Assembly (NCBI GenBank): GCA_902592265.1
Contig: CACJDV010000002.1
Coordinates: 24,622-88,621 of the forward strand
DNA length: 64,000 nt
Source of the DNA: an uncultured Pelagibacteraceae bacterium
GTDB taxonomy: Bacteria; Pseudomonadota; Alphaproteobacteria; Pelagibacterales; Pelagibacteraceae
Reading direction: 5' to 3'
The notes under the pieces were generated by a model. The model saw only the letters and a program-made list of their open reading frames with translations, made no database searches and was not told where the DNA came from. This document shows, in pieces, positions 26,534 to 46,102 of the stretch; within the stretch, counting starts at the first letter, position 1; each line of letters opens with the position of its first letter. A program made the position numbers and the translations under genes.

Positions 26534-26609
26534 TGGTGGGCAGTAAAGGACTCGAACCTTTGACCCCCTCGGTGTAAACGAGATGCTCTACCAACTGAGC
26601 TAACCGCCC
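26534..26609 (-). tRNA. tRNA-Val (TAC); its 5' half lies within the element's attachment core
   Basis: Reverse complement GGGCGGTTAGCTCAGTTGGTAGAGCATCTCGTTTACACCGAGGGGGTCAAAGGTTCGAGTCCTTTACTGCCCACCA; anticodon loop TTTACAC; acceptor GGGCGGT/ACTGCCC. Confidence 0.95.
26571..26609. repeat. Left attachment core (direct repeat copy 1)
   Basis: ggtgtaaacgagatgctctaccaactgagctaaccgccc, identical to 35399-35437. Confidence 0.93.
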
Positions 26610-26696
26610 AAAACCAAATAACGCAAGTGTTTACAACATTTTTATTAAGAAAGCAATAAATGGATTGTGGAGTTTTGAGTACATCTGTGAACATTT

Positions 26697-26760
26697 TGCG
26701 TAGACAATGCGTAGATGGTTTTGTCATTCAAAATTTGTTTTTGCGTAGACGATGCGTAGA
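26697..26760 (+). repeat. Two TGCGTAGA-N3-TGCGTAGA doublets (candidate integrase arm-type sites, left end)
   Basis: TGCGTAGA at 26697, 26708, 26742 and 26753, with 11-bp spacing within each pair. Confidence 0.75.
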
Positions 26761-26776
26761 TCAAAACGAATTAATT

Positions 26777-26796
26777 ACCCGCAATTCATTACGGGC
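26777..26796 (+). repeat. CCCG-N10-CGGG palindrome upstream of integrase gene
   Basis: acccgcaattcattacgggc. Confidence 0.5.
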
Positions 26797-26848
26797 ATTT
26801 TCTTAAAAAAATAAAAAAAGTAAAACAACAAAAAAAGGAAATATTATT

Positions 26849-28252
26849 ATGACTAAAATCGGACACAACGAACCGCCTAAAACTTTAGATGATTTTTTAA
26901 TTAAAGATCAAAATGAAAAAAGTACAGGGCGAATTAAATTAACAAACACAATCATTAAAAAATATTTAATAAAAAAATATGATGCAGCTAACGATAAGTA
27001 TTTGCCGCAAACTGCAAATGATAGTGAAAAAATTGGATTAAAAGTTAGAGCTAATATCGGTGGTTCTAAATCTTTTTATTATAAGCATGATCCAAAAGGA
27101 AAAACTATAAATGGTAAAAGACATAATTCAGTTTTTTATCATTTAGGAAATTTTCCTGAAATGTCAGTAGATAGTGCAAGATCATTAGTAGATGATTTAA
27201 AGCACGCAATTAAACTTGGTCAAGATCCAAGATCAGTGCTGGAAGAAAGAAGAAAAGCGAAAACATTGTCAGAGGTTATAGATCTATGGAAAGAAAAAGA
27301 TTTATATAAATCAACTAGGTTCGCTGCATCTACAATCAAAGATACTGAACAAAGATTAATGAATTGGATTGATTTAAAAGCATATAAACCAAGTACAAAT
27401 AAAATTATTGCTGCCAATTACAATGATCTAAAAATTGGATCTAAAAGGATGATTGAAATAACTAAATCTGATTTAATCGCATGGCACGCAGCTATAACAA
27501 AGGCTGGTTCATACCAGGCCAATAGATGTATGGATGATATGTCAATTATCTTTAATTGGGCTTTAGAAGAAAAGATAATCAAAGAAAATATTTGTAAGTT
27601 CAAGAAAAGCGAATTGAATGAGGAAAGCGATAGATTAGACGATGTTGATCCTTATTCACTTGTTGAATGGCGATTGATTAGAAAAGCTACAATGAAAATA
27701 ATTAAAAAAGAACCAAGAGTATTTTTAGCAGCAATGGCGATCCTATTGTATTTATATTGTGGTCGTAGATATAAATCAGAGATCTTAAACCTTAAATGGA
27801 ACCAGGTTGATTGGGATGCAAATATAATTAGATTACCAAAAACTAAAACGGGTAAATCTCAATTCTCAATTAACAAAATGTCTAGATGGGTATTGCGTCA
27901 GCTTTGGAAATATAACAAAGAAAATTTCAAAGGTAAGAAAGCTAAAACAATAAAAGCTGCGTATTTATTTCCAGCAACAAGAAAATCTAAAAAACCATAC
28001 ATCCAAGATATTAGAAAAACTTGGGTTAAAGTTTGTAAGTTAGCAAATGTAAGAATAGAGGAATTAGTTTTGTTAAGACATACTTGGGCCTGTCTTGCAT
28101 TAATAGCATCAAACGGAAATATTAAACTTGTTAAAGATGAGGGCGGTTGGAAAACTTATAAGATGGTTGAACGATATGCCAAGTATAACGAGAGATATTT
28201 ACAAAAAGGATCGGAAGTTATTGGAAATTACTTTGCCCGTGCAAAAGCATAA
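26849..28252 (+). CDS. int: Tyrosine recombinase / phage integrase
   Basis: C-terminal catalytic signature LVLLRHTWACLALIASNGNIKLVKDEGGWKTYKMVERYAKY (R-H-x-x-W...Y); upstream YLYCGRRYKSEILNLKWNQVDWDANIIRLPKTKTGK box; next to the tRNA att site. Confidence 0.95.
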   Translation: MTKIGHNEPPKTLDDFLIKDQNEKSTGRIKLTNTIIKKYLIKKYDAANDKYLPQTANDSEKIGLKVRANIGGSKSFYYKHDPKGKTINGKRHNSVFYHLGNFPEMSVDSARSLVDDLKHAIKLGQDPRSVLEERRKAKTLSEVIDLWKEKDLYKSTRFAASTIKDTEQRLMNWIDLKAYKPSTNKIIAANYNDLKIGSKRMIEITKSDLIAWHAAITKAGSYQANRCMDDMSIIFNWALEEKIIKENICKFKKSELNEESDRLDDVDPYSLVEWRLIRKATMKIIKKEPRVFLAAMAILLYLYCGRRYKSEILNLKWNQVDWDANIIRLPKTKTGKSQFSINKMSRWVLRQLWKYNKENFKGKKAKTIKAAYLFPATRKSKKPYIQDIRKTWVKVCKLANVRIEELVLLRHTWACLALIASNGNIKLVKDEGGWKTYKMVERYAKYNERYLQKGSEVIGNYFARAKA

Positions 28253-28321
28253 ATTAGTAGGTATTGGCTATTGATCCCCGCTGCTTAATTTAATACTACT
28301 CATTCCAGGAGTTATTATTAA

Positions 28322-28840
28322 ATGAGCAGCATACTTGGTAAAGGTATCGGATCGCTAATTTTAAAAGATTATGTTGATTGGAAAAAGATACAAAACATTG
28401 CTAGACGAAACGGGATTTATACTGCTGCTGGAGTAGCAAAATTAATCATTGAACATTCCCCTATAAAATCTGTTGGCGAAATGAAATTACAATGGGCCAA
28501 AAGAATTTATTTAGCTCAACAAAAGAACAAAGATGCATCGCTATATTCAATCTTAAAAGATGATTTAGAAGTATTAGAATTCTTGCTCGGCCATGATCCG
28601 TTGTTAATTCATTGGGGTGCAGAGTGGGAAAAAGCATTAACCAAGAAAAAAGTAAAAATTACTCGGGCTAAATTAAAACCTTATTCTAAATGCATTGAAC
28701 ACCACAGAAAAAAATACAATGAGTTCTTGGCAAAAAATAAAAAATTTTTTACTGATTGGCTGCATGAGAATAAACGGGATGATGAGTTTGATACATTCAT
28801 AATTAAACTTGAAAGAGCTATTAAGAAAAAAAGATATTAA
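28322..28840 (+). CDS. Hypothetical protein of integrated element
   Basis: 172 aa intact ORF with strong RBS aggag upstream; no family recognised. Confidence 0.75.
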   Translation: MSSILGKGIGSLILKDYVDWKKIQNIARRNGIYTAAGVAKLIIEHSPIKSVGEMKLQWAKRIYLAQQKNKDASLYSILKDDLEVLEFLLGHDPLLIHWGAEWEKALTKKKVKITRAKLKPYSKCIEHHRKKYNEFLAKNKKFFTDWLHENKRDDEFDTFIIKLERAIKKKRY

Positions 28841-28848
28841 TTTTATTT

Positions 28849-28870
28849 TACCCGCAGCTGCTCACGGGTA
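28849..28870 (+). repeat. TACCCG-N10-CGGGTA palindrome between 28322 ORF and the Xis-like gene
   Basis: tacccgcagctgctcacgggta. Confidence 0.55.
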
Positions 28871-28915
28871 GGCAATCAAATAGATTTAGATCCAAAAAAG
28901 TATATTGCTGCTGCT

Positions 28916-29122
28916 ATGAGCAGTGAAACAAATAACAATTCAGTTTGGACAGATACCAAAGGGATCGCCAAACATTTTAATCTTAAACCAGCAACAATCC
29001 GTAAGCAAAGATCTAAACAAGTAAAAAATCAGCTGCCGTTTCATAAGATCGGTGGCCAGGTTAGATACAATGTAATCGAATGTGAAAAGGAAGTAGAGGC
29101 AAATAAATATGCGTACAAGTAA
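28916..29122 (+). CDS. Excisionase/AlpA-like helix-turn-helix DNA-binding protein
   Basis: 68 aa; WTDTKGIAKHFNLKPATIRKQRSKQVKNQLPFHKIGGQVRYNVIECEKEVEANK matches the excisionase/MerR-like HTH layout. Confidence 0.75.
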   Translation: MSSETNNNSVWTDTKGIAKHFNLKPATIRKQRSKQVKNQLPFHKIGGQVRYNVIECEKEVEANKYAYK

Positions 29123-29558
29123 AACTATCAAGGATCCAACATTCAATATCTATCGTAGAGGTGGCAGTGTTGAAAAAGCAATGGAAAGCAAAGGCGATGG
29201 AAAAGCTAAAGAAGAATTAATGCAATTAGCAAAGGATGAAAAAGATATTTTATTCGATGTTGAAAGTGAGATTACAGATATTCTTTTAGACAATTACAAC
29301 AAAGAGAAAAAACCAGGTCAAAGTTTTTTAGATTGGCTTGGTACCAAAGACAGAGAATATTTAATCAAGATACCTTTAGGCTTGGCCAGCGGTGGAAAAG
29401 TAATTTCTATTTCTGAATATTTAAAACAAAAAGAAAAACCTAGAATTAAAAAATTAAATCTTGATGCAGTTGCACCAGGAAAAGCATTATCAGAATTAAC
29501 AGATGCAGAAAGGGAAGTTGTTAGAAATCTATTGCGGATGACTTTTGGCCAAGATTAA
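29109..29558 (+). CDS. Hypothetical element protein
   Basis: 149 aa intact ORF; overlaps upstream gene end and abuts the next gene at a stop/start overlap (taatg). Confidence 0.75.
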   Translation: MRTSKTIKDPTFNIYRRGGSVEKAMESKGDGKAKEELMQLAKDEKDILFDVESEITDILLDNYNKEKKPGQSFLDWLGTKDREYLIKIPLGLASGGKVISISEYLKQKEKPRIKKLNLDAVAPGKALSELTDAEREVVRNLLRMTFGQD

Positions 29559-30229
29559 TGAAACCAAGTGAATACAAACAAATGATGGAATATTTAACTA
29601 GGCCCAAACAAAAACCAAGAGAATTTGAAAAAGCAGATAATTCGCCAGTGATGGTTAGCAACGGGGAAATTATGACAGAAAATCAATTTAAAAAATCTTT
29701 ACCATTAGAAGATCAGCCTGGATATGATCCTGATAAAGATCCAAATTTATTAAGAAGAATTAAATATTATCAGGGCGAAGAATTAGGGGCTGAATTTGAT
29801 AGAGCTATCGCAGAAGAAGATAAAGCATTAAAAAAACTTGGCAGAGATCCCGCAAACATCTTACAGAGAAATAGAAAAGTTCAGCCGTTAGTTCCTAAAA
29901 GAGCAACAACAAAACAGATGGTTGAGCTGAAAGGTAAAATAGATAAATATAAAAAAGTTCATTTTCCAAAAGAAGAAAAACCATTTACAAAAATTGCAAA
30001 GAACCTGGGTAAGAACAAAGAGTTTAAAAAAGAAAGTTTTAAATTAGATCCTTTACCTCAAATAGATTTTAGCACTATTGCACCACCAAAGACTAGAACA
30101 CCTGAAGAAATTGCAATGGAGCAAAGGTTCAATGAGCTTTTAAGAAAACAGAATGAGGAAAAAGTTAGAAACGCAACAACGGGATTAGCTGGTCTTGTTG
30201 GCGGCGATCCTTTTACAAAATTAAAATGA
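29558..30229 (+). CDS. Hypothetical element protein (charged, proline-containing; C-terminal GLAGLVGGDPF)
   Basis: 223 aa intact ORF; start overlaps previous stop, end overlaps next ATG. Confidence 0.75.
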   Translation: MKPSEYKQMMEYLTRPKQKPREFEKADNSPVMVSNGEIMTENQFKKSLPLEDQPGYDPDKDPNLLRRIKYYQGEELGAEFDRAIAEEDKALKKLGRDPANILQRNRKVQPLVPKRATTKQMVELKGKIDKYKKVHFPKEEKPFTKIAKNLGKNKEFKKESFKLDPLPQIDFSTIAPPKTRTPEEIAMEQRFNELLRKQNEEKVRNATTGLAGLVGGDPFTKLK

Positions 30230-30462
30230 ATAAATATGAATTGAAATATATGCTGGAACAGATGAGCAGCTCCGTTGATAGATTAACGGATGTAGCTGGA
30301 AAGCAGCAGCATCATATATCAGAGTTGTGGGAAGAAATAGGCCATAAGAATACAAAGATCCAAAAGCTAACAGAAAAAAATTATGAATTAGCGAGTGTCA
30401 TTCGAGGGCAAAGAGAAAAAGATTTAGCTGAAAAATATTGGGATGAAAGGATTGATAACTGA
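30226..30462 (+). CDS. Small predicted coiled-coil protein
   Basis: 78 aa; heptad-like pattern; ATGA overlap with upstream gene and TGATG with downstream gene. Confidence 0.65.
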   Translation: MNKYELKYMLEQMSSSVDRLTDVAGKQQHHISELWEEIGHKNTKIQKLTEKNYELASVIRGQREKDLAEKYWDERIDN

Positions 30463-30629
30463 TGACTAAAAAAGATTGGCTGCCCGATGTTAAAAAATTA
30501 ATGAAAATAGTTGAGCATCAAAAGCAAAGATTACATGACCAGGATTGGTTGATCCATAACCTGATTACAACAATAGACAAAATTCGTAGCGATGAGCTGC
30601 CGAATAAAAAGGAAAATAATTTGAATTAA
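30462..30629 (+). CDS. Small hypothetical protein (55 aa; below ORF-track cutoff)
   Basis: Read directly: MTKKDWLPDVKKLMKIVEHQKQRLHDQDWLIHNLITTIDKIRSDELPNKKENNLN*, start overlaps stop of the upstream ORF. Confidence 0.6.
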   Translation: MTKKDWLPDVKKLMKIVEHQKQRLHDQDWLIHNLITTIDKIRSDELPNKKENNLN

Positions 30630-30654
30630 ACCATTTAACAAAGGAGTTATTATT

Positions 30655-31305
30655 ATGTCGAATATTTTCAAACTTAATCAAGTCGTATCTAAAAATAAAT
30701 ACAACAAAGGAATAGCAGCAACACAAAGATTTGATGTTGTTGATCTTGGTAAGCCTGGGCCTGATGATTGGTTCAAGTTATATACATTCGATCAGCAAGG
30801 ATTAGATAATTTTCAGCCTTGTATGATTAGCAGAGTTAAAGATCCCGAGGGTAAGTTAAACCCCTATTTAATTGGTGGTTCAGAGGATTTTAAGGCTGCT
30901 TGTGCAGAGAAACTACCAAGAATTCAAGATGTTCATCTAGCATACGGAATAACAACGCATAAGAGATTATTTATTTGGCCCGTTGTTTATTTAGAAGATC
31001 TTAACGAGGGGATTGGTTGGCATATATCCGCTTGTGAAATTGCTAATGCAGCATTTACAAGATGGACACAGATAAGATCAGATAAACCAAATAGCAGATA
31101 TATTCATTTGGATTTAGACGATCAAGATCAGGTTCCAAAAGAAAAAGTTTTTGAAACACCACCTATTGATTATGAAACTGCCGTAAACAAAGCATTTAAA
31201 AATAGATACATAGGCAGCGAAGATCATCCTGTTTTTAAAAATGCTGGTTCAGTTTTAGAAACTAACTTTCAGAAAAAAACAATGAAAGGAATTATTAAAT
31301 CATGA
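30655..31305 (+). CDS. Hypothetical protein upstream of polymerase (candidate replication accessory)
   Basis: 216 aa, strong RBS aaggag; ATGA overlap with the next ORF. Confidence 0.75.
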   Translation: MSNIFKLNQVVSKNKYNKGIAATQRFDVVDLGKPGPDDWFKLYTFDQQGLDNFQPCMISRVKDPEGKLNPYLIGGSEDFKAACAEKLPRIQDVHLAYGITTHKRLFIWPVVYLEDLNEGIGWHISACEIANAAFTRWTQIRSDKPNSRYIHLDLDDQDQVPKEKVFETPPIDYETAVNKAFKNRYIGSEDHPVFKNAGSVLETNFQKKTMKGIIKS

Positions 31306-31547
31306 GTAGAGATCATATTAGAGTTATTGACGATTATAGACACTGCCATGAGAATGAATTCTTTTTTACATACGATCCAAGAAAAACTTCAGGAACAAAG
31401 CAGCTAATGGAATATTTAGAAAATAATTTTGATATTGAATTTCAAGATATTCCAGGTTGGCAAATTAAATCAGTGGTCGTTAATACTTATGGCAATTACG
31501 AAGATAGGGAAAAGTTTGGGATAAGAGTAATTAGAAATGATTGTTGA
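31302..31547 (+). CDS. Hypothetical protein
   Basis: 81 aa; overlaps both neighbours in a tight operon. Confidence 0.65.
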   Translation: MSRDHIRVIDDYRHCHENEFFFTYDPRKTSGTKQLMEYLENNFDIEFQDIPGWQIKSVVVNTYGNYEDREKFGIRVIRNDC

Positions 31548-33390
31548 TACTCTTAAAGAAAATTTTGATTATCTTTGTGTCGTAGATACTGAATTCAAAG
31601 GCCAGCAAGATGAGGGCCAACTCAATGATCCTGTTTGCGTTGTTATCAAAGAATTAAAATCAGGTCAGTATCATAAGTTCCACGGCCCGAAATTAAAGCT
31701 GCCCTATCCACCCAACAAAACATTATGGATTGCTCACAATGTAATTGCAGAGGCCCATACATTTTTAAGTTATGGATTAAAGCTGCCGAAATATTGGTGG
31801 GATACTTTCATTGAAGATAAGAAATTAAATTTTGGCAAAGTCGCTAGACACTCGTTGCTAGCGGCTTGTGGCAGATACGGAATACAAACTATTTCAGAGG
31901 ATCTAAAAAAGTATTTCATTAATAAAATAATTTTACCTAATGAAACTTATACCCAGGATCAAATGTCCAAGATCCTTGAATATTGTACCAGCGATGTTGA
32001 TGCTGGAGCTGCACTATTCCTGGAGCAATGCAAAGAAATTGAAAAAGTAAAAAAATTTGATGGCCCTGAAATGATAATTAGTCAGGCCCTATTCAGTGGA
32101 GCTGCGGTTGCTTGCACGGCCAAGGTTGAGTTCAACGGGAACCATGTAAACAATGAGCTGCTAAAAAAGATTGATGATGCTTTTCCTTATGTGAAAAGAA
32201 AAATAATTGATGAATTAAATGCTGAATTAGATGTTTACGAAAACGATGTTTTAAAACAAGATAAGTTTGATACCTGGATCGAGCATATTGGTTTAGCTGA
32301 TGTATGGCCTCTAACAATTACAGGACAATATAAAACAGATGAAAAAACTTTAGAAACTTACAAAGATGCTCATCCTGATGTTAGAAAATTTAAACTAGCC
32401 CAGGAGTTTATAGGTTCTAGAAAATTAAAAGGTTTTATTGTTGGGCCTGATAAGAAAGCAAGATGCAGTTATAGGATGTATGGATTAAAAACGGGAAGAA
32501 CAAATCCATCAACAGCAAAGCATCCTTTCAATGCTCCAAAGGCAATGAGAAATTTAATCAAAGCTCCTGATAAAAATAAAATCAGTGTTAATTTTGATTA
32601 CAGATCGCAAGAGGTTGCAATAGCAGCTTATCTTTCCCAAGATCCAAATATGATGGCAGCGGTTCAAAAGACAGATCCGTATATTTACATTGCACAAATA
32701 AACAAAGCAGCTCCCGATGGTGCAACAAAGAAAACGCATAAGGTAATTAGAAATCTTTATAAGACCACAACACTTGCAGCTCTATATGGTCAGGGTGCCG
32801 TGAATATGTCTAAACGAATGAATTTAATAATTGATTATGGCCAAGAGTTATTTGTAAAAATTAAAAATACTTTTCCAACTTATTTTGCCTGGGCCAAGAC
32901 TATGTTTGATAAAGCAATAGTTAATGGTTATGCCGAAACAAAATATGGATGGCGATATTATTTTAAACCTGGCGAATTATATAATCCAAGAACCTTTTAT
33001 AATTTTCCTATTCAGGCCCATGGTTCAGAGATGCTGCGTAGAGCTTTAATTGATTTAACTTTTGCTGGTATTGAAGTTAATGCACTAATTCACGATGGAA
33101 TTGTAATTACACTAAATAAGAAAAATTTTAGAAAAGAATTTATTCAGGCTAAAGAAATATTAATCAATGCATCAAAAGCAATCCTGAATGAAGATAGCAG
33201 CACTGATTATTATTGCGATGTAGATTTCCAAATTATTAGATCAGGAATGATACAAGAGCCTGCGGATCAAAATAAATTTAATAGGATCATTGAATTAACG
33301 AATGAGTTTAACCTAGGGAATAATTCCAGGGGTACCCAAGGAACAAAGTCAGCCCCGTGGATAGATATTAATATTAATAAATATAATTAG
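31537..33390 (+). CDS. Phage-type family A DNA polymerase with N-terminal 3'-5' exonuclease-like domain
   Basis: Exo motifs CVVDTEFKG and YCTSDVDA; polymerase motif A VNFDYRSQEVAIAAYLSQD, motif B KVIRNLYKTTTLAALYGQG, motif C ALIHDGIVIT. Confidence 0.92.
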   Translation: MIVDTLKENFDYLCVVDTEFKGQQDEGQLNDPVCVVIKELKSGQYHKFHGPKLKLPYPPNKTLWIAHNVIAEAHTFLSYGLKLPKYWWDTFIEDKKLNFGKVARHSLLAACGRYGIQTISEDLKKYFINKIILPNETYTQDQMSKILEYCTSDVDAGAALFLEQCKEIEKVKKFDGPEMIISQALFSGAAVACTAKVEFNGNHVNNELLKKIDDAFPYVKRKIIDELNAELDVYENDVLKQDKFDTWIEHIGLADVWPLTITGQYKTDEKTLETYKDAHPDVRKFKLAQEFIGSRKLKGFIVGPDKKARCSYRMYGLKTGRTNPSTAKHPFNAPKAMRNLIKAPDKNKISVNFDYRSQEVAIAAYLSQDPNMMAAVQKTDPYIYIAQINKAAPDGATKKTHKVIRNLYKTTTLAALYGQGAVNMSKRMNLIIDYGQELFVKIKNTFPTYFAWAKTMFDKAIVNGYAETKYGWRYYFKPGELYNPRTFYNFPIQAHGSEMLRRALIDLTFAGIEVNALIHDGIVITLNKKNFRKEFIQAKEILINASKAILNEDSSTDYYCDVDFQIIRSGMIQEPADQNKFNRIIELTNEFNLGNNSRGTQGTKSAPWIDININKYN

Positions 33391-33396
33391 GTATGT

Positions 33397-33726
33397 ATGC
33401 AGATAGACAAAACCAAAGTGAAAGAATTATTTATAGCTGGCAGTTTAAATCCCGCTATTGCAATGTTGTTCAGGGCCAAAGCTGGTATGCCTGGTCTATT
33501 AATTTATTTGTATGTGAAATGGCGATTAGGATTTCCGCATTACATGACAAAGCAAAAAAGAACCTGGATAAAATTAGACAATGTATCAATGGAAAAATAC
33601 GGGTTCGGTATGGATCCAAAAACCAAGAACAAAGCACTGCGAAAATTGGACAGAGAAAAATTAATTCAACTGCACTTGCTAGAAAATTCAGGCAAGGCTC
33701 CACAAGTGAGGTTATTAACTAAATGA
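33397..33726 (+). CDS. Small protein, possible winged-helix regulator, directly upstream of terS
   Basis: 109 aa; WIKLDNVSMEKYGFGMDPKTKNKALRKLDREKLIQLHLLENSGKAPQVRLL looks wHTH-like; ATGA overlap with the next gene. Confidence 0.6.
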   Translation: MQIDKTKVKELFIAGSLNPAIAMLFRAKAGMPGLLIYLYVKWRLGFPHYMTKQKRTWIKLDNVSMEKYGFGMDPKTKNKALRKLDREKLIQLHLLENSGKAPQVRLLTK

Positions 33727-34286
33727 CAAAAGAAATAGATAAGCAGCTAGATGACAAAGAAAAAAAGCTGCGTAAGAAAATTGAAAAGCAAGTAGAGAAT
33801 AAAAAATACCAAGATAAGATAACACCTATTCAGCAAAAGTTTATTGAGAATTACACTAGCAAATATGGTCAATGGTCAGCGACGCAATGTGCGATAGCAG
33901 CTGGCTATTCGCCGTCATCGGCCCATACAAGAGCTGCTGAATTATTAGATTGGCGAAAGCATCCTGATATTGCAATCGAGATCCAAGATCGGTTGGCTGC
34001 GTTGCGTGAGGCTTGGGATGTGAACAGAGATAAACATTTAGCAATGCTGGTTAAGATCCGTGATGCGTCAATGGAAAAAGGTATGTATGGAGTGGCTAAC
34101 AAAGCAGAGGAGCTGCGGGGCAAAGTAGCTGGATTATATGTTGAAAGAAATCTTACACTTACAAAAGAATTATCAAACGAGGACTTGCACGATAAGATGA
34201 AAGAAATATTTCCAACGAAAGAGGCTTTTCTAGCGGGCCAACGGGATATTATGAAAGATCTATTTCCTGATGATGACGAGGAGTAA
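33723..34286 (+). CDS. terS: Phage terminase small subunit-like protein
   Basis: 187 aa; TPIQQKFIENYTSKYGQWSATQCAIAAGYSPSSAHTRAAELLDWRKHPDIAIEIQ matches the Terminase_2/XtmA N-terminal HTH pattern. Confidence 0.88.
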   Translation: MTKEIDKQLDDKEKKLRKKIEKQVENKKYQDKITPIQQKFIENYTSKYGQWSATQCAIAAGYSPSSAHTRAAELLDWRKHPDIAIEIQDRLAALREAWDVNRDKHLAMLVKIRDASMEKGMYGVANKAEELRGKVAGLYVERNLTLTKELSNEDLHDKMKEIFPTKEAFLAGQRDIMKDLFPDDDEE

Positions 34287-34435
34287 AAGTTTTTGGAGCT
34301 GGTCAAGAGGCGGTTAAAACTATGATCCAAGATCCCTGAATAATAGGTTGTTGCACTAGATTTAACTATATTTGAAATCCAGCCTTGAACCATGAATAAG
34401 GATCTGTTATTGAAATTTTATTAATAATAATTCCA

Positions 34436-34482
34436 CCTTTAGCTGCTGTTTTCCATTATTCAGTGGCTAAAGGTTTTTTTTA
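34436..34482 (+). terminator. Rho-independent terminator downstream of terS
   Basis: Stem CCTTTAGCTGCTG / CAGTGGCTAAAGG (13 pairs including two G-U) followed by TTTTTTTT. Confidence 0.85.
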
Positions 34483-34489
34483 TTTTAGG

Positions 34490-34622
34490 GCTGGACATAG
34501 CTGGACTGAATGTAGGCAAATGTAGGCCTGAAAGTAACCCAATGTTACCCACCCCGTTTCTCGATTATTTAATTATAGCAACACTAATTTGAAATTTTTG
34601 ACAAGGTAACCTGGTTGCCTAC
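34490..34622. repeat. Cluster of 10-bp-phased 7-mer doublets and inverted copies (candidate ori/pac region)
   Basis: GCTGGAC at 34490/34500; TGTAGGC at 34511/34521; GTAACCC/GTTACCC at 34534/34544; inverted GGTAAC at 34605 and TTGCCTAC at 34615. Confidence 0.6.
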
Positions 34623-34828
34623 TTGGCGATAACTTGTTTTGCGTTTGCGTGATAGCAGCTCTTGCAAATAGAACCTTTAGAATATTCAAACTCACTAAAC
34701 ATTAAAACGAAATCTGTCCGTGCAATCTCTGTACGATCCCCGCCGCAAAAGATACATCTATCAATTTCAACATTCTCAAATAATGATTGGTGGTTCTCTT
34801 TTCCTGATGCGTTTTGCCAAGATGACAT
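34619..34828 (-). CDS. Small zinc-binding (CxxC...CxxC) protein
   Basis: 69 aa; CIFCGGDRTEIARTDFVLMFSEFEYSKGSICKSCYHANAK; only plausible minus-strand gene in the element. Confidence 0.6.
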   Translation of the reverse strand: MSSWQNASGKENHQSLFENVEIDRCIFCGGDRTEIARTDFVLMFSEFEYSKGSICKSCYHANAKQVIAK

Positions 34829-34981
34829 ATAGGATTTTATAGGAGCAAATGTTCTGAATGTAAAATAATTTTTTAGAATTCAGCTTAACAACTTAAAAAT
34901 TTTTTGAGGTCTATAAATGTCTAGATCTTGCTATATAGGTCTAACTATTAGGATCCCTTTTGTATAAAAGGGGTATTGGGG

Positions 34982-35000
34982 GTTGGACTTTGTTGGACTT
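34982..35000 (+). repeat. GTTGGACTT doublet with 10-bp spacing
   Basis: gttggactttgttggactt. Confidence 0.55.
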
Positions 35001-35091
35001 TAAGATTGGTTTAGGATCCCTCTAAAAGTATTCGTTAAAGCTCCATACATGCACCAGGATTGCTTATACCCGTGAGATTGAACATATTTGA

Positions 35092-35155
35092 GGGCATCGC
35101 AACAGCGATGCTCTTTTAAGCATTTATTAATTCTTTTATGGCCGCAACAGCGGCC
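35092..35155 (+). repeat. Twin hairpins sharing CGCAACAGCG core
   Basis: gggcatcgc-aaca-gcgatgctc (35092-35113) then ggccgc-aaca-gcggcc (35140-35155); the first is followed by TTTT. Confidence 0.65.
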
Positions 35156-35214
35156 CAAAATACAACTCCAGCGAGTCAAAATTACAGATAAAAAAGCTAA
35201 TAAAACAAAGGCTT

Positions 35215-35248
35215 TTTACCCGTGAATTTGGCTGCATCTGCGGGTAAA
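35215..35248 (+). repeat. TTTACCCG-N18-CGGGTAAA palindrome near right end
   Basis: tttacccgtgaatttggctgcatctgcgggtaaa. Confidence 0.55.
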
Positions 35249-35292
35249 TAAGATAAGGAAAATAAGGAATAATTGATCCTAGAACGATCCGT

Positions 35293-35312
35293 TGCGTAGA
35301 TAATGCGTAGAT
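35293..35312 (+). repeat. TGCGTAGA-N3-TGCGTAGA doublet (candidate integrase arm-type site, right end)
   Basis: TGCGTAGA at 35293 and 35304; same orientation and 11-bp spacing as the left-end pairs. Confidence 0.75.
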
Positions 35313-35398
35313 GGCTTGATTTACTATTCCATCATTGATAGTCTATTAGTGTTGTGATTGCTTGTGTAAATGAAGATTTAATTTATTTGAGCTAGGTG

Positions 35399-35437
35399 GG
35401 TGTAAACGAGATGCTCTACCAACTGAGCTAACCGCCC
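35399..35437. repeat. Right attachment core (direct repeat copy 2; orphan 5' half of tRNA-Val)
   Basis: ggtgtaaacgagatgctctaccaactgagctaaccgccc, identical to 26571-26609. Confidence 0.93.
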
Positions 35438-35557
35438 TTAACCAAAATTAGTGATTTTTATATCTTTTATGATAATTACGCAAGATATTTTAAATCATTT
35501 AATCTAGCAAAAATTAATAATTATTTTATTATAATCAAATATACAAACTAGTAGAAT

Positions 35558-36880
35558 TTAATTATCCCTCATAGCTTCATATATTTTTTCTGAAACTTTT
35601 TTATAACCAAAAATATTAAAATGTCCTGGTAAATTAAAAGGAAACATTTTTTTAGGATCATTTTCTAATGAAAGTAAACTTTGTTCTATATCAATTAAGT
35701 TAATATCTAATTTTCTTACTATATCTTTAACATCTTTAAAATAATTTTTTTTATAATCTTCTTTATTATTTTTATAACCTGTTAAATAAATAAAATAAAA
35801 ATTAGACTCATTTTTTTTCGTCAAAACTTTAGCCATATTTAATATTTCTTCTAATTTATCTTTTGAGATATCATTTTCATATTTATTGACATCTTTAAAT
35901 ATACTTTTGATATTAACTCTTACTTTGTATAATTTTAAGAATCGTAAAATTTCATTATAATCTTTTTTAATTTCCTCTTTATTTTTTTTGTGGATAAAAT
36001 TATTTAACAACTCATCAATATTATTTTGTTGATTCATTAAATTTTGAGAATAGTCGGTATCAAAAAAATATTTTTTTAAATTATCAGATTTGAGTTCATT
36101 AATTAATTCTTCAAGGTCGTTGTCATAAAATATCCATAAAACGTTTTTCACTTTTGGTGATATATATTCTCTTAAAGTAGCGTATTCAACTAAAGGGCCA
36201 TTTCCAGAATAGCCAAGATTTAGGACGCTTTTGTTACTAAGCTTTCTTAAGTTAGATCCTATATCATTGGGCCTATTCACACAGGCGCCATGAGTAAAAG
36301 AATCTCCTATCAACATGAATTCAATTTCATCTTCATCCCATTCAGAGTCTGGATTATTGAATCCATAACGATCACTTATGTAAGATGAAAAATAACCATT
36401 TTCATTGCAGTGGATTGTTTTTGAGTTTGAAATACCTCCAAGAGGAAAAATATTAGATGATTCAAATAAAAAGTTTTCTGGAGATATGCTTATAACAATT
36501 TTTTCATCAATTATTTTACTATCATTGTATATTTCTTTTAAAGATCTGCGGTCATAATTTTTAGAATTATTTTTCTCAAATATCTTAATTTTTTTTGATA
36601 AATTTTTTTTATCGTTCTTATTAGATACTTTCACTAGATAGTAAAACTCTGTGAGATATAAAGAAAAAACAACAGAAAAAAAAATAATAATTGTATATAA
36701 ACCAATCGATCTAAAATAAAAAATTAATAAGGAGAGTATAAAAAAGAAAATTGATACTATATAGTAAATAAGATAATAATCTCTTCTTTCACCATCCCAT
36801 ATAATTTCAGATCTATAAAAAGTATATATGAATAAAACTATAGAAATTATGAAATACAAGATTTGAATTTTAAATTTCAT
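35558..36880 (-). CDS. Membrane-anchored SGNH-hydrolase-like protein
   Basis: N-terminal TM segments, EFMLIGDSFTHGACV (GDS block), LPGHFNIFGYKKVSEKI (C-terminal H block). Confidence 0.7.
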   Translation of the reverse strand: MKFKIQILYFIISIVLFIYTFYRSEIIWDGERRDYYLIYYIVSIFFFILSLLIFYFRSIGLYTIIIFFSVVFSLYLTEFYYLVKVSNKNDKKNLSKKIKIFEKNNSKNYDRRSLKEIYNDSKIIDEKIVISISPENFLFESSNIFPLGGISNSKTIHCNENGYFSSYISDRYGFNNPDSEWDEDEIEFMLIGDSFTHGACVNRPNDIGSNLRKLSNKSVLNLGYSGNGPLVEYATLREYISPKVKNVLWIFYDNDLEELINELKSDNLKKYFFDTDYSQNLMNQQNNIDELLNNFIHKKNKEEIKKDYNEILRFLKLYKVRVNIKSIFKDVNKYENDISKDKLEEILNMAKVLTKKNESNFYFIYLTGYKNNKEDYKKNYFKDVKDIVRKLDINLIDIEQSLLSLENDPKKMFPFNLPGHFNIFGYKKVSEKIYEAMRDN

Positions 36881-36988
36881 TATTTTAAAATATGTTCAAA
36901 TTTCTTATAAAGATTTTAATAAAAAATAAAATTGAAATAACAAATGAAAACTTATCTATTATTAACTTCGGTTAGATTTTTTTGCAAT

Positions 36989-38161
36989 TTAACAAAGATA
37001 ATCAAGCGCTTTGAGAATTCCACCTTTTTGATATGGTATCTTTGATTTCATCAATCCCATTTCAACACCAGCTAAAGTTCCAGCTAGCATCAATTCGTTA
37101 AAATCACCTAAATGTCCAATTCTAAAAATTTTTCCCGCAACTTTTGCTAAACCAGTTCCTAAAGACATGTTATAATGATCTAAAATTATTTTTCTCAAAG
37201 AGTCTGCATCATGTCCATCTGGGACCATCACGGCTGTTAAAGAGTCAGAATATTCTTCTGGATTTTTACAAAGTATCTCTAGGCCCCAAGCTTTAACTGC
37301 AACCCTAGTAGCTTCTGCAAATCTTTTATGTCTTGTGAAAACATTTTCTAAGCCCTCTTCAGTTAACATATTAATTGCTTCATCTAATCCATACAATAAG
37401 TTTGTTGCTGGTGTATATGGAAAATAACCTTTTTTGTTGTTTTCTAACATTGGTTTCCAGTCCCAATATGATTTCGGTAAATCGGAGCTTTCATAAGCTT
37501 TTAGTGCTTTTGAACTAATTGCATTAAAGGAAAGTCCTGGTGGTAATAATAACCCTTTTTGAGATCCACCTACTGTTACGTCAACTTTCCATTCTTCATG
37601 TCTATAATCTATAGAACCAAGAGAGGAAATTGTATCAACAAAGAGTAAGGCCGGATGTTCTGCATTGTCCATCGCTTTTCTTATTTTTCCTATTCTGCTT
37701 GTAACTCCTGTAGATGTTTCGTTGTGAACTGCACAAACTGCTTTAATTTTTTTTTCTTTATCTTCCTTCAATTTTTGTTCAACAATATTTGGGTCAACTC
37801 CTGTTCTCCAATCACCTTTTACAAAGTCAATTTCTAATTTAAATTTATCCGCAATATCGTACCAAAGAGTAGAAAAATGTCCTGTTTCAAACATTAGAAT
37901 TTTATCACCTGCACTTAAAGTATTTACTATTGCAGCTTCCCAGGCACCTGTGCCTGAAGCAGGAAATATAATTACAGGTTCTGAAGTTTTAAAAATTAAC
38001 TTTATTCTATCTAAAACTCTTAAACCAAGTTCTGCAAAATCTGGACCTCTATGGTCTATTGTCGGATAATCCATTGCTCTTAAAACTCTGTCAGGAACGT
38101 TAGTTGGACCTGGTATTTGCAAAAAATGTCGACCTGGTCTTATATTGTTTGAAATTGCCAT
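36989..38161 (-). CDS. Serine--glyoxylate aminotransferase family (class V aminotransferase)
   Basis: GRHFLQIPGPTNVPDRVLRAMDYPTIDHRGPDFAEL, TVGGSQKGLLLPPGLSF (PLP lysine). Confidence 0.92.
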   Translation of the reverse strand: MAISNNIRPGRHFLQIPGPTNVPDRVLRAMDYPTIDHRGPDFAELGLRVLDRIKLIFKTSEPVIIFPASGTGAWEAAIVNTLSAGDKILMFETGHFSTLWYDIADKFKLEIDFVKGDWRTGVDPNIVEQKLKEDKEKKIKAVCAVHNETSTGVTSRIGKIRKAMDNAEHPALLFVDTISSLGSIDYRHEEWKVDVTVGGSQKGLLLPPGLSFNAISSKALKAYESSDLPKSYWDWKPMLENNKKGYFPYTPATNLLYGLDEAINMLTEEGLENVFTRHKRFAEATRVAVKAWGLEILCKNPEEYSDSLTAVMVPDGHDADSLRKIILDHYNMSLGTGLAKVAGKIFRIGHLGDFNELMLAGTLAGVEMGLMKSKIPYQKGGILKALDYLC

Positions 38162-38206
38162 TCTGCTGTATATGCTAAAGAAATTATATAATCAAACTTA
38201 TAATAT

Positions 38207-39361
38207 ATGACAAATAGTAGTAATACAATCGAGACCTTAGAAGTTTATGTTTTAAATAACCCTGATGAAGTTAATCCTCACTGGGTAAGCCATTTTATAG
38301 TTCCAACAGCAAATGAACTATTAATTAAGATCAAAACTAAAGATGGTAATTCTGGTTTCGGTCTGGCAACTAGCTATACGGATATCAAACCAATTATCAA
38401 GCCTTTCTCCAATGGTTTGCAAGATTTAATAATTGGGGAAGATCCTTTTTGCCCTGAAAAGTTGTATGAAAAAATTTTTGAATTAACAGACACTCGCCTA
38501 AGCAATGAAAAAGGTTGGAGTAGAGAAGCTTTAATTAGGATTTCTGCTGCTTTAGATATTGCATGCTGGGATTTGATAGGTAAAGCCTCTAAAATTCCAC
38601 TATATAAATTGTTTGGAGGTTACAGAAATAAAATCCCTGTATATGTAACTTGTGCTTATTACAGAGACGGTAAAACTGAAAAAGAACTTAGAGAGGAATT
38701 ACAAAAGCTAATTAAAATTGGCCATAAAAGTTTTAAAGTTAAAGTAGGTGGATTAAGTATAAAAGAAGATGCCAAAAGACTAGAAATAATTCGACAAGAA
38801 ATTGGTGACAATAAAGATCTAATGATTGATGTTAATAGAGCATGGGACCTAAAAACGGCTATTGAGGGAGTAAAAGAATTTGAGAGATTTAATCCAACTT
38901 GGATAGAAGAGCCTGTGAGATGGGAAGATGATAGAAGAAATTTAAAACTTTTATCACAACAAACAAAAATTCCTTTATCAGGTGGAGAAAGTGAAATTAC
39001 GATTTATGGATGTAGATCCATGGTGGAAGAAAATGCAATTCAAATTTTGCAATTTGATTGCACAATGTTTGGTGGTTTTACTAATGGTAAAAAACTATCT
39101 GCTTTATGTGAATTAAATCATTTAGATATAGCACCACATCATGATTGTTATATTCATGCTCCTTTAGTTGCGTCTTCTCCATCAGGAAGAATAGTCGAGT
39201 CATTTGATGATGAAAGAGATCCTCTACAAGCTCAATTATTTGAAAATCACCATAAAATGAGTGATGGTTGGATACATCTAAATGAAAATCCAGGTTTAGG
39301 ATTAGAAATTTCAGAAACCGCGTTAAAAAAGTTCGGTAAAATAGTTTACAAAAATAAATAA
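38207..39361 (+). CDS. Mandelate racemase/muconate lactonizing enzyme family (enolase superfamily)
   Basis: KSFKVKVGG, DVNRAWD, WIEEPVRWEDD, IAPHHDCYIHAPLVAS. Confidence 0.88.
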   Translation: MTNSSNTIETLEVYVLNNPDEVNPHWVSHFIVPTANELLIKIKTKDGNSGFGLATSYTDIKPIIKPFSNGLQDLIIGEDPFCPEKLYEKIFELTDTRLSNEKGWSREALIRISAALDIACWDLIGKASKIPLYKLFGGYRNKIPVYVTCAYYRDGKTEKELREELQKLIKIGHKSFKVKVGGLSIKEDAKRLEIIRQEIGDNKDLMIDVNRAWDLKTAIEGVKEFERFNPTWIEEPVRWEDDRRNLKLLSQQTKIPLSGGESEITIYGCRSMVEENAIQILQFDCTMFGGFTNGKKLSALCELNHLDIAPHHDCYIHAPLVASSPSGRIVESFDDERDPLQAQLFENHHKMSDGWIHLNENPGLGLEISETALKKFGKIVYKNK

Positions 39362-39378
39362 ACCTTTAATTAAGTTTT

Positions 39379-42282
39379 ATGCGGTTTAGTTCAGATCAAA
39401 TACAAAGAATAGGAAAAGAAATAAGTAATAAAGTTGATGGGAAAACTTTATTTGATGAATTTTCTCGAGGTCGATACAGTACAGATGCATCAGTTTATCA
39501 AATCAAGCCTCTTGGTGTAGTTCTTCCAAAAGATACAAATGATGTTTTAAACCTAATGGAATATTCTCAAAAAAATTCCATTCCTCTTCTAGCTAGAGGC
39601 GGTGGAAGTTCTCAATGTGGTCAAACTGTAGGTGAAAGTGTAGTTCTCGATTATTCAAAACATCAAAACAAAATATTAGAACTTAATATAGAAGAAAAAT
39701 ATGTATGGGTTCAGCCAGGTGTTGTCTTGGATCATTTAAATTCATTTCTAAGACCGCATGGTCTATGGTTTCCTGTAGATGTATCTACAAGTAGTAGAGC
39801 AACTATTGGGGGGATGTCAGCAAATAATTCATGTGGATCAAGATCTTTATATTATGGGAATATGGTTCACAACGTGCTAGCTATCGAAGCAATTCTAGAT
39901 GATGGTTCATTACATACTTTCGATCAAATTAATAAAAACTATTTAACAACAACTAATAACCAAGATCGTTTTTATAAAATAATTGATAAATTTTTACATT
40001 TAAGACAGAAAGTTAGTAAGGATATTGATGAAAACTGGCCAACTACTCAAAGAAGAGTTGGTGGATATAACATTGATTTAATAGATCCAAACGGGTTTAA
40101 TTCATCAAATCTATTAGTTGGTTCTGAGGGAACATTGTCTCTTTTTAATAGAATAAAATTAAAGTTATCTGAGATTCCTAAAAACAAAATTTTAGGCGTC
40201 TGTTATTTTGATAACTTTCATCAAGCTATGGAATTAACAAAAGAGATCGTAAAATTAAAACCTACTTGTGTCGAATTAATGGATCAAAACTTATTAAATC
40301 TTGCAAAAGAAATTCCAATGTATGCTGGTGGTATTAAGAAATATATAAAAGGTAATCCAGAGGCAGTTTTGATGGTTGAATTTATAGATACAGACCAAAA
40401 TATTTATGAGAAAAAAATAAAAGATCTTGAGTATTTAGTTCTTAATCAAAATAAAAAAAATCAATTTTCTTTTTTTACAGACTTATCAGAGCAAAAAGAA
40501 GTTTTTGAGATTAGAAAAGCTGGATTAAATATTTTGATGTCGATGAAGGGAGATAAGAAGCCGGTTGCATTTATAGAGGATTGTGCAGTTTCTTTAGATC
40601 ATTTGGCAGAATACACTGCAAGATTAAATGAAATATTTAAAAGATATAACACAAGTGGAATGTTTTACGCTCATGCATCGGTTGGAACCCTTCACGTAAG
40701 ACCAGTTTTGAATATGAAATCTGACCAAGATATTAAAAACATGAGATCTATATCTGAGGAAGCTTTTGAAATGGTTAAAGATTATAAAGGTTCTCATTCA
40801 GGTGAACACGGAGATGGGATTGTTAGATCAGAATTCCACGAAATGATGTTTGGAAAAAATATCACAAATGCATTCGAAGAAATTAAAGATACATTCGATA
40901 ATAAGAATTTATTAAATCCAGGTAAAATTGTAAGACCTTTTAAATCAAATGATAGATCGTTGATGAGATATAAATTAGATTATCAAACAGAGAATATAAG
41001 TACTCATTATGATTGGTCTAATTGGGGTCAATTTTCAGATGCAATTGAAATGTGTAATAACAACGGCGCATGCAGAAAATTAGATTCAGGAGTAATGTGT
41101 CCTTCATACAGGGTAACGAAAGAAGAGAAAGATTTAGTTAGAGGAAGAGCAAATACATTAAGACTCGCTCTTTCTAATCAATTACCAGAGGGGTCTTTTG
41201 CATCTAAAGAAATGTATGAAACAATGGAGCTTTGTGTGAGCTGTAAAGCTTGTCAAAGAGAATGTCCAATGTCTGTAGATATGGCTAAGATGAAAAGTGA
41301 ATTTCTCTCTCATTATTACAAAAAATATAGTATGAGAATTAAAGATAAAATTATCTCTGATATGCCTAGGCTGATTTGGTTATATAAAATCATAAACCCA
41401 ATAATTAATAAGATTAAAAATTTTCCAGTTATTTCAAACATTATTAAAAAATTTGGTTTTGCAACTGAAAGAAGCTTGCCTGAGGTCCAAAATCAAAAGG
41501 CTTTAAAAGACATATATAACAATCAAGAAATTTCAGAAAATAAAGTGATTTTATTTGCAGATACATTTAATATTAACTTTGAGAATGAAAATTTGGTCTA
41601 CACAATTAAAGTATTAAATAAATTTGGTTATCAAGCAGTAATCCCAAGTTTTGATAGTGATAAACTTGATAGACCACTCTGTTGTGGAAGAACCTATATA
41701 TCATATGGTCAACTAGATAAGGCTGCAGATGAATTGAATAGATTTAATGACTATATTATTAAAAATAACTACTTTGAATTACCCATAGTAGGTATCGAAC
41801 CGTCTTGTTTGCTTACTTTTAGTGACGAGTATCAATCACTTAAAGGCATAAAAAATAGAGATAAAATAAAAAATAGATTTTATTTATTAGAAGAGTTTAT
41901 TTTAGAACAAATTAAAAAAGATAAAAATGTTAAATCAAATAGTTTTAGTCAAAATGTTTTAATTCATGGACATTGTCACCAAAAGTCTCAAGATAGAATG
42001 AAAGGACTTAAAGATCTTTTATCTGAGCTAAATATAAATAATAAGATGATAGATTCTAGTTGTTGTGGGATGGCCGGTTCTTTTGGATATGATAGTAAAA
42101 CTTATGAAACTTCAAAAAAGATGGCTAATCTATCTTTAATACCTGCAATTAATAGTAGTGACGAAAATGATTTTATAGTTGCAAATGGTACAAGCTGTAG
42201 ACACCAAATATCAGATTTATCAGAAAAAAAAGGAAAGCACGTTTCAGAATTGTTATTTAAGATTTTTGAAACTGTAAATTAA
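39379..42282 (+). CDS. Fused FAD-linked oxidase / Fe-S (CCG domain) dehydrogenase, D-lactate/2-hydroxyacid type
   Basis: LARGGGSSQCGQTVG FAD-binding region, GEHGDGI, CVSCKACQRECP, HGHCHQKS, SSCCGMAGSFGY. Confidence 0.92.
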   Translation: MRFSSDQIQRIGKEISNKVDGKTLFDEFSRGRYSTDASVYQIKPLGVVLPKDTNDVLNLMEYSQKNSIPLLARGGGSSQCGQTVGESVVLDYSKHQNKILELNIEEKYVWVQPGVVLDHLNSFLRPHGLWFPVDVSTSSRATIGGMSANNSCGSRSLYYGNMVHNVLAIEAILDDGSLHTFDQINKNYLTTTNNQDRFYKIIDKFLHLRQKVSKDIDENWPTTQRRVGGYNIDLIDPNGFNSSNLLVGSEGTLSLFNRIKLKLSEIPKNKILGVCYFDNFHQAMELTKEIVKLKPTCVELMDQNLLNLAKEIPMYAGGIKKYIKGNPEAVLMVEFIDTDQNIYEKKIKDLEYLVLNQNKKNQFSFFTDLSEQKEVFEIRKAGLNILMSMKGDKKPVAFIEDCAVSLDHLAEYTARLNEIFKRYNTSGMFYAHASVGTLHVRPVLNMKSDQDIKNMRSISEEAFEMVKDYKGSHSGEHGDGIVRSEFHEMMFGKNITNAFEEIKDTFDNKNLLNPGKIVRPFKSNDRSLMRYKLDYQTENISTHYDWSNWGQFSDAIEMCNNNGACRKLDSGVMCPSYRVTKEEKDLVRGRANTLRLALSNQLPEGSFASKEMYETMELCVSCKACQRECPMSVDMAKMKSEFLSHYYKKYSMRIKDKIISDMPRLIWLYKIINPIINKIKNFPVISNIIKKFGFATERSLPEVQNQKALKDIYNNQEISENKVILFADTFNINFENENLVYTIKVLNKFGYQAVIPSFDSDKLDRPLCCGRTYISYGQLDKAADELNRFNDYIIKNNYFELPIVGIEPSCLLTFSDEYQSLKGIKNRDKIKNRFYLLEEFILEQIKKDKNVKSNSFSQNVLIHGHCHQKSQDRMKGLKDLLSELNINNKMIDSSCCGMAGSFGYDSKTYETSKKMANLSLIPAINSSDENDFIVANGTSCRHQISDLSEKKGKHVSELLFKIFETVN

Positions 42283-43469
42283 AGAATTATTTTTTTGTTA
42301 TAAAAATCATCTATCTCTTCATCTTTATAACCAAAATTTTGCATTATTTCCCTTGTGTGCTCACCTAAATCTGGTGCACCTTTAGATTTTTCTGTTTTGC
42401 TTTTTGAAAATTTAATTGGCATTCCAACAGCTTTGCTTGGACCAGCTTTTTTATTACTTACCTCAATAATCATCTCTCTTTCAATAGTTTGAGGGTCTTT
42501 AAACATGTCGGTTATCGAATTTATAGGACCACATGGTAAACCATTTTCATCAAATATTCTTAACCATTCTTGAGAAGGTTTTTTGATGAATTCATTATTA
42601 AGAATTTCTACAAGTTCATTTAAATTTTCTTTTCTACTCGAATTAGTTGAAAATTTTTCATCCTCATTAAGATCTTGACGATTGATTGCCTTTAGCAACA
42701 TAAGCCATGTATTTTGATTTGATGCACCAATAGTAATCCATTTATCTTTAGTTTTAAAAGCTTGATAAGGTGCAGTTAAAGGATGAGCTGATCCAAGAGG
42801 ACCTGGAGATACACCGGTTGCACCAGCGATTGCAGATTGCCAGTATGTATGAACTATTCCTGCTTCATATAAAGATGTATCAACTTTTTGTCCTTCGCCA
42901 GTTTTATTCCTATGAATTAAAGCAGCTAAAATACCACTTGCAGCAAGTAATCCTGCAGTGATATCTGTAAGTGGCGCTCCTACTTTCATTGGAGGTTTAT
43001 TCTTATCTTCACCAGTTATACTCATTAAACCACTCATGCCTTGTGCTACTAAATCAAATCCTCCTTTATTCGCATAAGGACCTGTTCTTCCATAACCAGA
43101 AATTTCACATAAAATAATTTTAGGATTAATCTTTGATATTGTATCATAACCAATACCCAGTTTTTCTAATGTCCCTTTTCTAAAATTTTCTAAAACTACA
43201 TCAGAATTTTTTATCATTGTCTTAAAAATCTCAATTCCCTTTTTATCTTTCAAATTTAAAGCAATACCTTTTTTATTTCTATTCATCATTAAATAAGCTG
43301 CTGACACTCCATTGACGTCGGGAGGAAGGAAATTTCTAGTATCATCACCTCCTGGGGTTTTTTCTATTTTAATAACTTCAGCCCCTAGATCTGCCAAAAG
43401 TAATCCACAAGTGGGACCAGCCATTATTTGAGCCATCTCTAACACTCGAATACCTTTTAATGATGCCAT
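42279..43469 (-). CDS. CoA transferase family III (CaiB/BaiF)
   Basis: LKGIRVLEMAQIMAGPTCGLLLADLGAEVIKIEKTPGGDDTR. Confidence 0.94.
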   Translation of the reverse strand: MASLKGIRVLEMAQIMAGPTCGLLLADLGAEVIKIEKTPGGDDTRNFLPPDVNGVSAAYLMMNRNKKGIALNLKDKKGIEIFKTMIKNSDVVLENFRKGTLEKLGIGYDTISKINPKIILCEISGYGRTGPYANKGGFDLVAQGMSGLMSITGEDKNKPPMKVGAPLTDITAGLLAASGILAALIHRNKTGEGQKVDTSLYEAGIVHTYWQSAIAGATGVSPGPLGSAHPLTAPYQAFKTKDKWITIGASNQNTWLMLLKAINRQDLNEDEKFSTNSSRKENLNELVEILNNEFIKKPSQEWLRIFDENGLPCGPINSITDMFKDPQTIEREMIIEVSNKKAGPSKAVGMPIKFSKSKTEKSKGAPDLGEHTREIMQNFGYKDEEIDDFYNKKIIL

Positions 43470-43475
43470 TTATTT

Positions 43476-45545: not shown

Positions 45546-46051
45546 ATATCTCCTGTTTGCTCGTCGCCCGTATTTTGTAAAACTAAATTTTTATAATCTT
45601 CTGGAATTCTTAAAGTCTCAGATAGAATAAAAAGACATGATGCAATTGGAATTACTGATTGAACAAATGGTTGAGGAACCCATTCTAATGTCACCAGCGT
45701 TTCGCCTGTTATTAAGGTTAAAACTAAATAACCGTAATATGCTAATAATATTAAAAAACCATAAACCACTAGCTTAGATACAACAAAAAAAATTTTTCTT
45801 AATGGTAGCGGAAAAGCTTTAAAAATACTTGGTACACTTATGTGAGAACCTTTTAATGCGGCATAGGCGGAACCATAATATGTTATCCATGCAAGTTGGA
45901 CAGCAGCAACTTCATCGTACCAAACCAAAGCACTGCCGGCAAAACGAAAGGTAACTCCAAGTAAAACTGTTACTGCTAATGCTACCATCATTATAAACAG
46001 TATAATTTTTAGAATTTTTTCGTACGAATTTATAAAATTTTGTAATTTCAT
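45542..46051 (-). CDS. dctQ: TRAP transporter small permease (DctQ)
   Basis: 169 aa 4-TM, WYDEVAAVQLAWITYYGSAYAALKGSHISV. Confidence 0.92.
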   Translation of the reverse strand: MKLQNFINSYEKILKIILFIMMVALAVTVLLGVTFRFAGSALVWYDEVAAVQLAWITYYGSAYAALKGSHISVPSIFKAFPLPLRKIFFVVSKLVVYGFLILLAYYGYLVLTLITGETLVTLEWVPQPFVQSVIPIASCLFILSETLRIPEDYKNLVLQNTGDEQTGDI

Positions 46052-46059
46052 ATAATATT

Positions 46060-46082
46060 CAGGCCCTCTGAATGAGGGCCTG
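46060..46082. other. Intergenic hairpin between dctP and dctQ (operon 1)
   Basis: caggccctc-tgaat-gagggcctg perfect inverted repeat. Confidence 0.85.
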
Positions 46083-46102
46083 ATAAGATCTATTTAATTA
46101 TA

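Follow-up and report, generated by a model that had tools for sequence, protein, structure and literature searches.

What is the compact unit that occupies a tRNA-Val gene in an uncultured Pelagibacteraceae bacterium (assembly GCA_902592265.1, contig CACJDV010000002.1, positions 24,622 to 88,621; this 64,000-nucleotide stretch is referred to as the window)? An earlier reading of the letters without database searches – the sequence-only reading – took the unit, at 26571-35437 of the window, for an intact satellite of a pelagiphage-like helper rather than a decayed prophage. Within the reach of sequence data, our analyses lead to the same answer: the element is very probably a phage satellite that is intact and integrated in the chromosome of a SAR11-type bacterium, and lytic HTVC023P-type pelagiphages most likely package it by the headful route. 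The SAR11 assignment is based on genome size, G+C content and the link to pelagiphages. In favour of a satellite are its attachment (att) repeats, a matching empty site, no virion gene families, relatives of the same size, a closed-circle form among them and a small terminase (TerS) related to those of phages.

The element is bounded by exact 39-bp direct repeats, as the sequence-only reading had stated. The left copy (attL, 26571-26609) coincides with nucleotides 1-39, the 5' half, of tRNA-Val(TAC) (26534-26609, minus strand; ARAGORN and Rfam), and the right copy (attR) lies at 35399-35437. The two starts are 8,828 bp apart, and a search allowing up to three mismatches returned these two matches in the window, with none expected by chance. 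Since the repeat duplicates the tRNA's 5' half, the DNA upstream of the intact gene is element DNA that replaced the original; judging from the map, the element must supply the tRNA promoter. This duplication with replaced upstream DNA is seen in the window (26571-26609) and in two related elements (L011:1737-1791 and L012:8546-8612), and two others (L014 and L028) use the tRNA 3' half instead.

We identified the corresponding empty site in a relative (G407) that is 98% identical to the window across 610 bp spanning nuoA, tRNA-Asp and tRNA-Val (tRNA-Val leads a Val-Asp tRNA pair). After its tRNA-Val comes sequence 97% identical to window 35438-35509, the DNA past attR; this empty site is short – the contig stops 73 bp beyond tRNA-Val – yet unambiguous. 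Four further relatives that we inspected (G414, G399, G408 and G026) have tRNA-Val next to lon without a satellite. The repeats and the matching empty site demonstrate site-specific integration at tRNA-Val. Base composition gives no mark of the element, since its G+C content (31-37% in most 1-kb steps) is similar to that of the flanks; what delimits it are the repeats together with the empty site. The window's own tRNA-Val/lon interval also contains, at 35558-47077, a metabolic island whose genes, named by reading the sequences, include an aminotransferase, an enolase-superfamily protein, an FAD oxidase, a CoA transferase and a TRAP transporter; in the four relatives tRNA-Val and lon are directly adjacent.

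We searched the element's proteins against the Pfam, PHROGs and NCBIfam profiles, and the only families recognised were an integrase, a weakly matched excisionase (Xis), a family A DNA polymerase (PolA) and TerS. The tyrosine integrase (467 aa, 26849-28252; plus strand, as are all genes below unless stated) matches Phage_integrase (2.9e-14) and Arm-DNA-bind_3 (3.8e-9). Repeat family D2 has three copies: two putative arm-type sites for the integrase (TTGCGTAGAYRATGCGTAGAT at 26696 and 26741, spanning 26696-26766) and one at 35292-35317. PolA (617 aa, 31537-33390; DNA_pol_A 2.6e-21) includes a 3'-5' exonuclease domain and matches the PDB profile of Pol I (2e-36); its exonuclease and polymerase catalytic motifs, read by eye in alignments A1 and A10, are present and conserved in relatives. 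TerS (187 aa, 33723-34286) is of the SPP1/SF6-like kind (Terminase_2 5.5e-10, phrog_51 1.5e-14), and its family profile matches 3zqp at 2.6e-7 and 2cmp at 4e-5. SPP1 and SF6 small terminases are pac/headful packaging enzymes. The sequence-only reading had named each of these three proteins correctly. Its Xis-like helix-turn-helix (HTH) protein (68 aa, 28916-29122) holds the same position in L010, L011 and L018, but the profile matches are weak (HTH_17 0.0055, phrog_66 0.017).

Consistent with a satellite, none of the three profile collections recognised a large terminase (TerL), portal, capsid, tail or lysis family among the element's proteins, in agreement with what had been read from the letters. 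The same holds more widely: the 83 proteins of nine related elements match a total of 11 Pfam families, among which there is nothing structural and no TerL, portal, capsid, tail or lysis family. The families recognised are integrase, TerS, PolA, an AAA/primase-type protein and HTH, plus single marginal matches to unrelated families.

We looked for relatives with TerS and with PolA across 397 genomes of the order and obtained matches in seven and six genomes, respectively, with the element's own genome counted in both. Single-sequence PolA scans of genome and viral contigs yielded no useful relative; alignment and genome searches did. Two other viral PolA matches (L024 and L025) were set aside as they have no satellite genes besides PolA. 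The PolA-bearing elements, which we call type A, comprise that of the window; L010 (G212; 8,950 bp, at the 3' end of lpd, with junctions that code for alternative lpd C-termini); L011 (G225; 8,881 bp, tRNA-Met); L028 (G392; 8,930 bp, tRNA-Thr); L018 (a 9,078-bp unit on an IMG/VR contig); L026/L029 (tRNA-Arg, ~9.9 kb between att copies, with GT8 cargo); and L027, which is interrupted by a contig end. Four elements from SAR11-order genomes or viral contigs share the window element's layout and size (range 8.83-9.08 kb), and the five best-bounded sizes have a mean of 8,933 bp and a standard deviation of 94. This near-uniformity persists even though PolA identity to the window's PolA is only ~29-37%. 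The most conserved gene of the family is orfm (34619-34828, minus strand), which encodes a 69-aa CxxC...CxxC zinc-finger-like protein that is 34-76% identical in five other elements; the highest value is to L010, where PolA reaches only 35%.

The layout of these relatives bears on whether the element could instead be the deletion remnant of a larger prophage, one that retained its integration, replication and TerS genes. Such elements do decay: near tRNA-Met in another genome (L013:9622-9903; G308:C2) lies a TerS fragment with an internal stop, which represents a decayed satellite. Against a remnant, however, stand the four elements of equal layout and size, the closed circle described below, the intact open reading frames and the lack of any larger co-linear version among the relatives. 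Moreover, we found no match among 50,697 phage records for orfm, for the L011 homologue of orf5 or for a homologue of orf8.

Two satellite contigs in IMG/VR appear to capture extrachromosomal forms. In L018 (type A), the 99-nt contig ends are identical, which reduces the 9,177-bp contig to its unit length; TerS is intact across the end junction, and the region from orfm to the integrase matches the joined two ends of L010, as if attP had been joined. In L085 – a member of a second, smaller type, B – a 123-nt terminal overlap is located within the integrase. Short terminal overlaps typically arise when the assembled template is closed or repeated in tandem. Overlaps this short do not distinguish a circle from a concatemer, and the two contigs are consistent with either form, one for each element type.

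We used TerS to look for a likely helper. Among the phage records, TerS matched two, Pelagibacter phage HTVC027P and phage 023Pt_psg01; the window's TerS is 32-35% identical to that of HTVC027P. We also scanned 2.9 million IMG/VR viral contigs with a seed alignment that included HTVC027P, which biases the result: relatives accounted for 542 of the 600 pattern matches, and 79 new loci were kept. Further HTVC027P-like genes occur in 76 of these 79 loci, and TerL was seen on 26 of the contigs. In the TerS tree, a branch (100/99) separates 67 phage sequences from the satellites, whose types A and B also stand apart; given long branches, the finer order is unsure, and we read the tree without a root and claim no direction of descent. 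Judged by sequence, satellite TerS show a specific relationship to those of HTVC023P-type pelagiphages such as HTVC027P.

This shared TerS counts in favour of a prophage remnant. However, the two circular satellites (L018 and L085) have only TerS in common with the searched part of HTVC027P, and HTVC027P is obligately lytic, without lysogeny genes (PMC12753301). We therefore give a remnant very little credence, and the preference for an intact satellite expressed in the sequence-only reading stands, with relatives of the same layout and size rather than larger co-linear prophages.

HTVC023P-type genomes average 58.8 kb, have a full set of virion genes and none for lysogeny, and by report are the most abundant known pelagiphages, at ~7.6% of viromic reads (PMC9599517, PMC12753301). 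TerS ancestry makes them the most likely helpers and lends support to the pelagiphage-like helper that had been proposed. An argument from size was rejected: ~58.8 kb divided by 8.93 kb does not give a whole number, and headful packaging needs none. Within the satellite explanation, and with a probability that overlaps it, a helper other than an HTVC023P-type phage is a minority possibility of some substance. The satellite TerS are no more than remote relatives of that of HTVC027P and form separate tree branches, but their placeable relatives among the viral contigs are HTVC027P-like, subject to the seed bias noted above.

Type B elements (L012, L014, L015 and L085) measure 5,369-5,875 bp and encode an integrase, TerS and, in place of PolA, a ~595-aa AAA/primase-type (AAA-ATPase/primase-like) protein. 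Two of them, L014 and L085, have homologues of orf4 or orf5. A 21.8-kb viral contig (L138; IMGVR_UViG_3300025425_002733) has orfm-, orf5- and L028-type genes along with an 836-aa Toprim/DUF5906 primase-like protein, and may represent a further satellite type or a relative.

The existence of two types also bears on a different explanation: that the element is an autonomous integrative PolA replicon, moving by vesicles, transformation or general transduction, in which TerS is an acquired accessory and there is no dedicated helper. A complete or partial module of orf8, PolA and the winged-helix gene orf11 is also present in other Alphaproteobacteria (L145, 8746-13069; L146; L147; L141), with an integrase nearby in three of the four, although two of these contigs are short; L026 likewise has the module without a recognised TerS. 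Tandem cargo units also occur, as in tycheposons. In L011, the satellite is followed in tandem by a second unit, of 7.0 kb (L011:10672-17700; G225:C9), which a third tRNA-Met repeat delimits; its cargo includes two Cys-loop receptor-like channels, an amine oxidase, a PrsW protease and a CII-like regulator. An integrase was not recognised among its genes, so its mobilisation may occur in trans. Against autonomy, the two element types differ in replication module and both retain TerS as their one phage gene, and size is nearly fixed within each type. We judge an autonomous replicon to be quite unlikely, and it keeps what weight it has mainly because the replication module is wider than the satellite lifestyle.

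Several observations weigh against a helper-dependent satellite. No TerS was recognised beside the module in L145, L146, L147 or L141, so the module is not specific to packaging, nor was TerS recognised in two PolA-type relatives, L026 and L028. The helper assignment derives from the ancestry of one gene, TerS. Among the element's proteins we identified no primase, helicase or initiator. In addition, the activity of the window's integrase is unsure, since a valine replaces the usual histidine or lysine in its HxxR box. Even so, an old and intact satellite lineage packaged by lytic HTVC023P-type phages is the most likely explanation of the sequences.

Under this satellite explanation, infection by a lytic HTVC023P-type (HTVC027P-like) pelagiphage would trigger excision of the element by Int and Xis. 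PolA would copy the excised circle into head-to-tail concatemers, with orf11 as a possible origin or regulatory factor. The satellite TerS would then join the helper's TerL, so that satellite DNA would fill helper particles by the headful (pac) route; these would deliver it to a new cell, where the integrase would insert it at tRNA-Val.

The remaining genes of the element have few recognisable features. Its genes lie mostly on the plus strand with overlapping start and stop codons, a pattern the sequence-only reading had described accurately while missing the minus-strand orfm. No family was assigned to orf2 (172 aa, 28322-28840), which is defined by position only; its slot holds a 118-177-aa gene in every group A element having the region, though alignment is weak (16-27% identity). 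Two satellite-specific genes occur in both element types: orf4 (149 aa, 29109-29558; tblastn matches in L010, L014 and L085) and, by sequence searches, orf5 (223 aa, 29558-30229). The coiled-coil-like orf6 (78 aa, 30226-30462) is 63% identical to its L010 counterpart, and orf7 (55 aa, 30462-30629) and orf9 (81 aa, 31302-31547), both from the open reading frame list, have no assigned family. Nor does orf8 (216 aa, 30655-31305; alignment A6), which is immediately upstream of polA throughout the family, occurs in other Alphaproteobacteria too and gave a poor AlphaFold model (predicted local distance difference test, pLDDT, 40). Structure prediction suggests that orf11 (109 aa, 33397-33726) is a winged-helix DNA-binding protein (pLDDT 74), with Foldseek probabilities to winged-helix proteins of up to 0.99 but a weak E of 0.03. 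A terminator-like hairpin followed by a T run (34435-34481, plus strand; inverted repeat I4, not in the terminator scan list) comes after TerS. PADLOC reported no defence gene on the element, only a weak mad1 HTH match.

A broader proposal, to which we give slightly less than an even chance, is that SAR11 carries a standing guild of satellites with two fixed size classes (~8.9 and 5.7 kb), swappable replication modules and one packaging strategy, based on a TerS lineage that has long been independent and is tuned to HTVC023P-type phages. Under this proposal, a constraint that the helper sets on packaging or replication would account for the uniform unit size. A satellite family that borrows HTVC023P-type phages would alter counts of virus particles and of virus-caused death, and with the cultured pair HTCC1062/HTVC027P the relation between satellite and helper could be put to the test in a streamlined bacterium.

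How does the element compare with known systems? Like phage satellites in general, it lacks the genes for a complete virion. It resembles phage-inducible chromosomal islands (PICIs) of the Staphylococcus aureus pathogenicity island (SaPI) type in having an integrase, replication genes and a TerS – which in PICIs redirects helper packaging – but it has PolA where PICIs have a primase-helicase, and the PICI gene set (rpp, cpm, ppi and stl-type genes, capsid redirection) was not recognised in the Pfam, PHROGs and NCBIfam searches. Virion-encapsidated integrative mobile elements (VEIMEs), for which PMC10803314 and PMC11389934 cite Eppley et al. (PNAS, 2022), are a further comparison. These elements of marine bacterioplankton are likewise small, integrative and without virion genes, and reportedly travel in phage particles as concatemers. 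The att repeats and empty site place our element in a bacterioplankton genome by site-specific integration, as for VEIMEs, to which we liken it by description. HTVC023P-type pelagiphages (HTVC027P, MN698241) have a related TerS, but they are lytic with full virion genes, whereas the element has no TerL, portal or capsid family and is not a prophage of this type. Phage-inducible chromosomal minimalist islands (PICMIs) of Vibrionaceae integrate beside fis, have no terS and depend on a virulent phage, with headful concatemers inferred (PMC10803314). They share with the element a marine setting, small size and a core of int and replication genes, but the element sits at tRNA-Val (its relatives at other tRNAs or lpd), has a TerS and would replicate through PolA. 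Tycheposons of Prochlorococcus (Hackl et al. 2023), as described in PMC10872708, use a tyrosine recombinase at tRNA genes and come in satellite and cargo forms; by description, the element resembles them in having a tyrosine recombinase and a tRNA target, and its relative L011 in the tandem cargo. The kind of element is thus already known from VEIMEs, tycheposons and PICMIs, and what is added here is a PolA-type SAR11 family, its uniform size and a probable helper.

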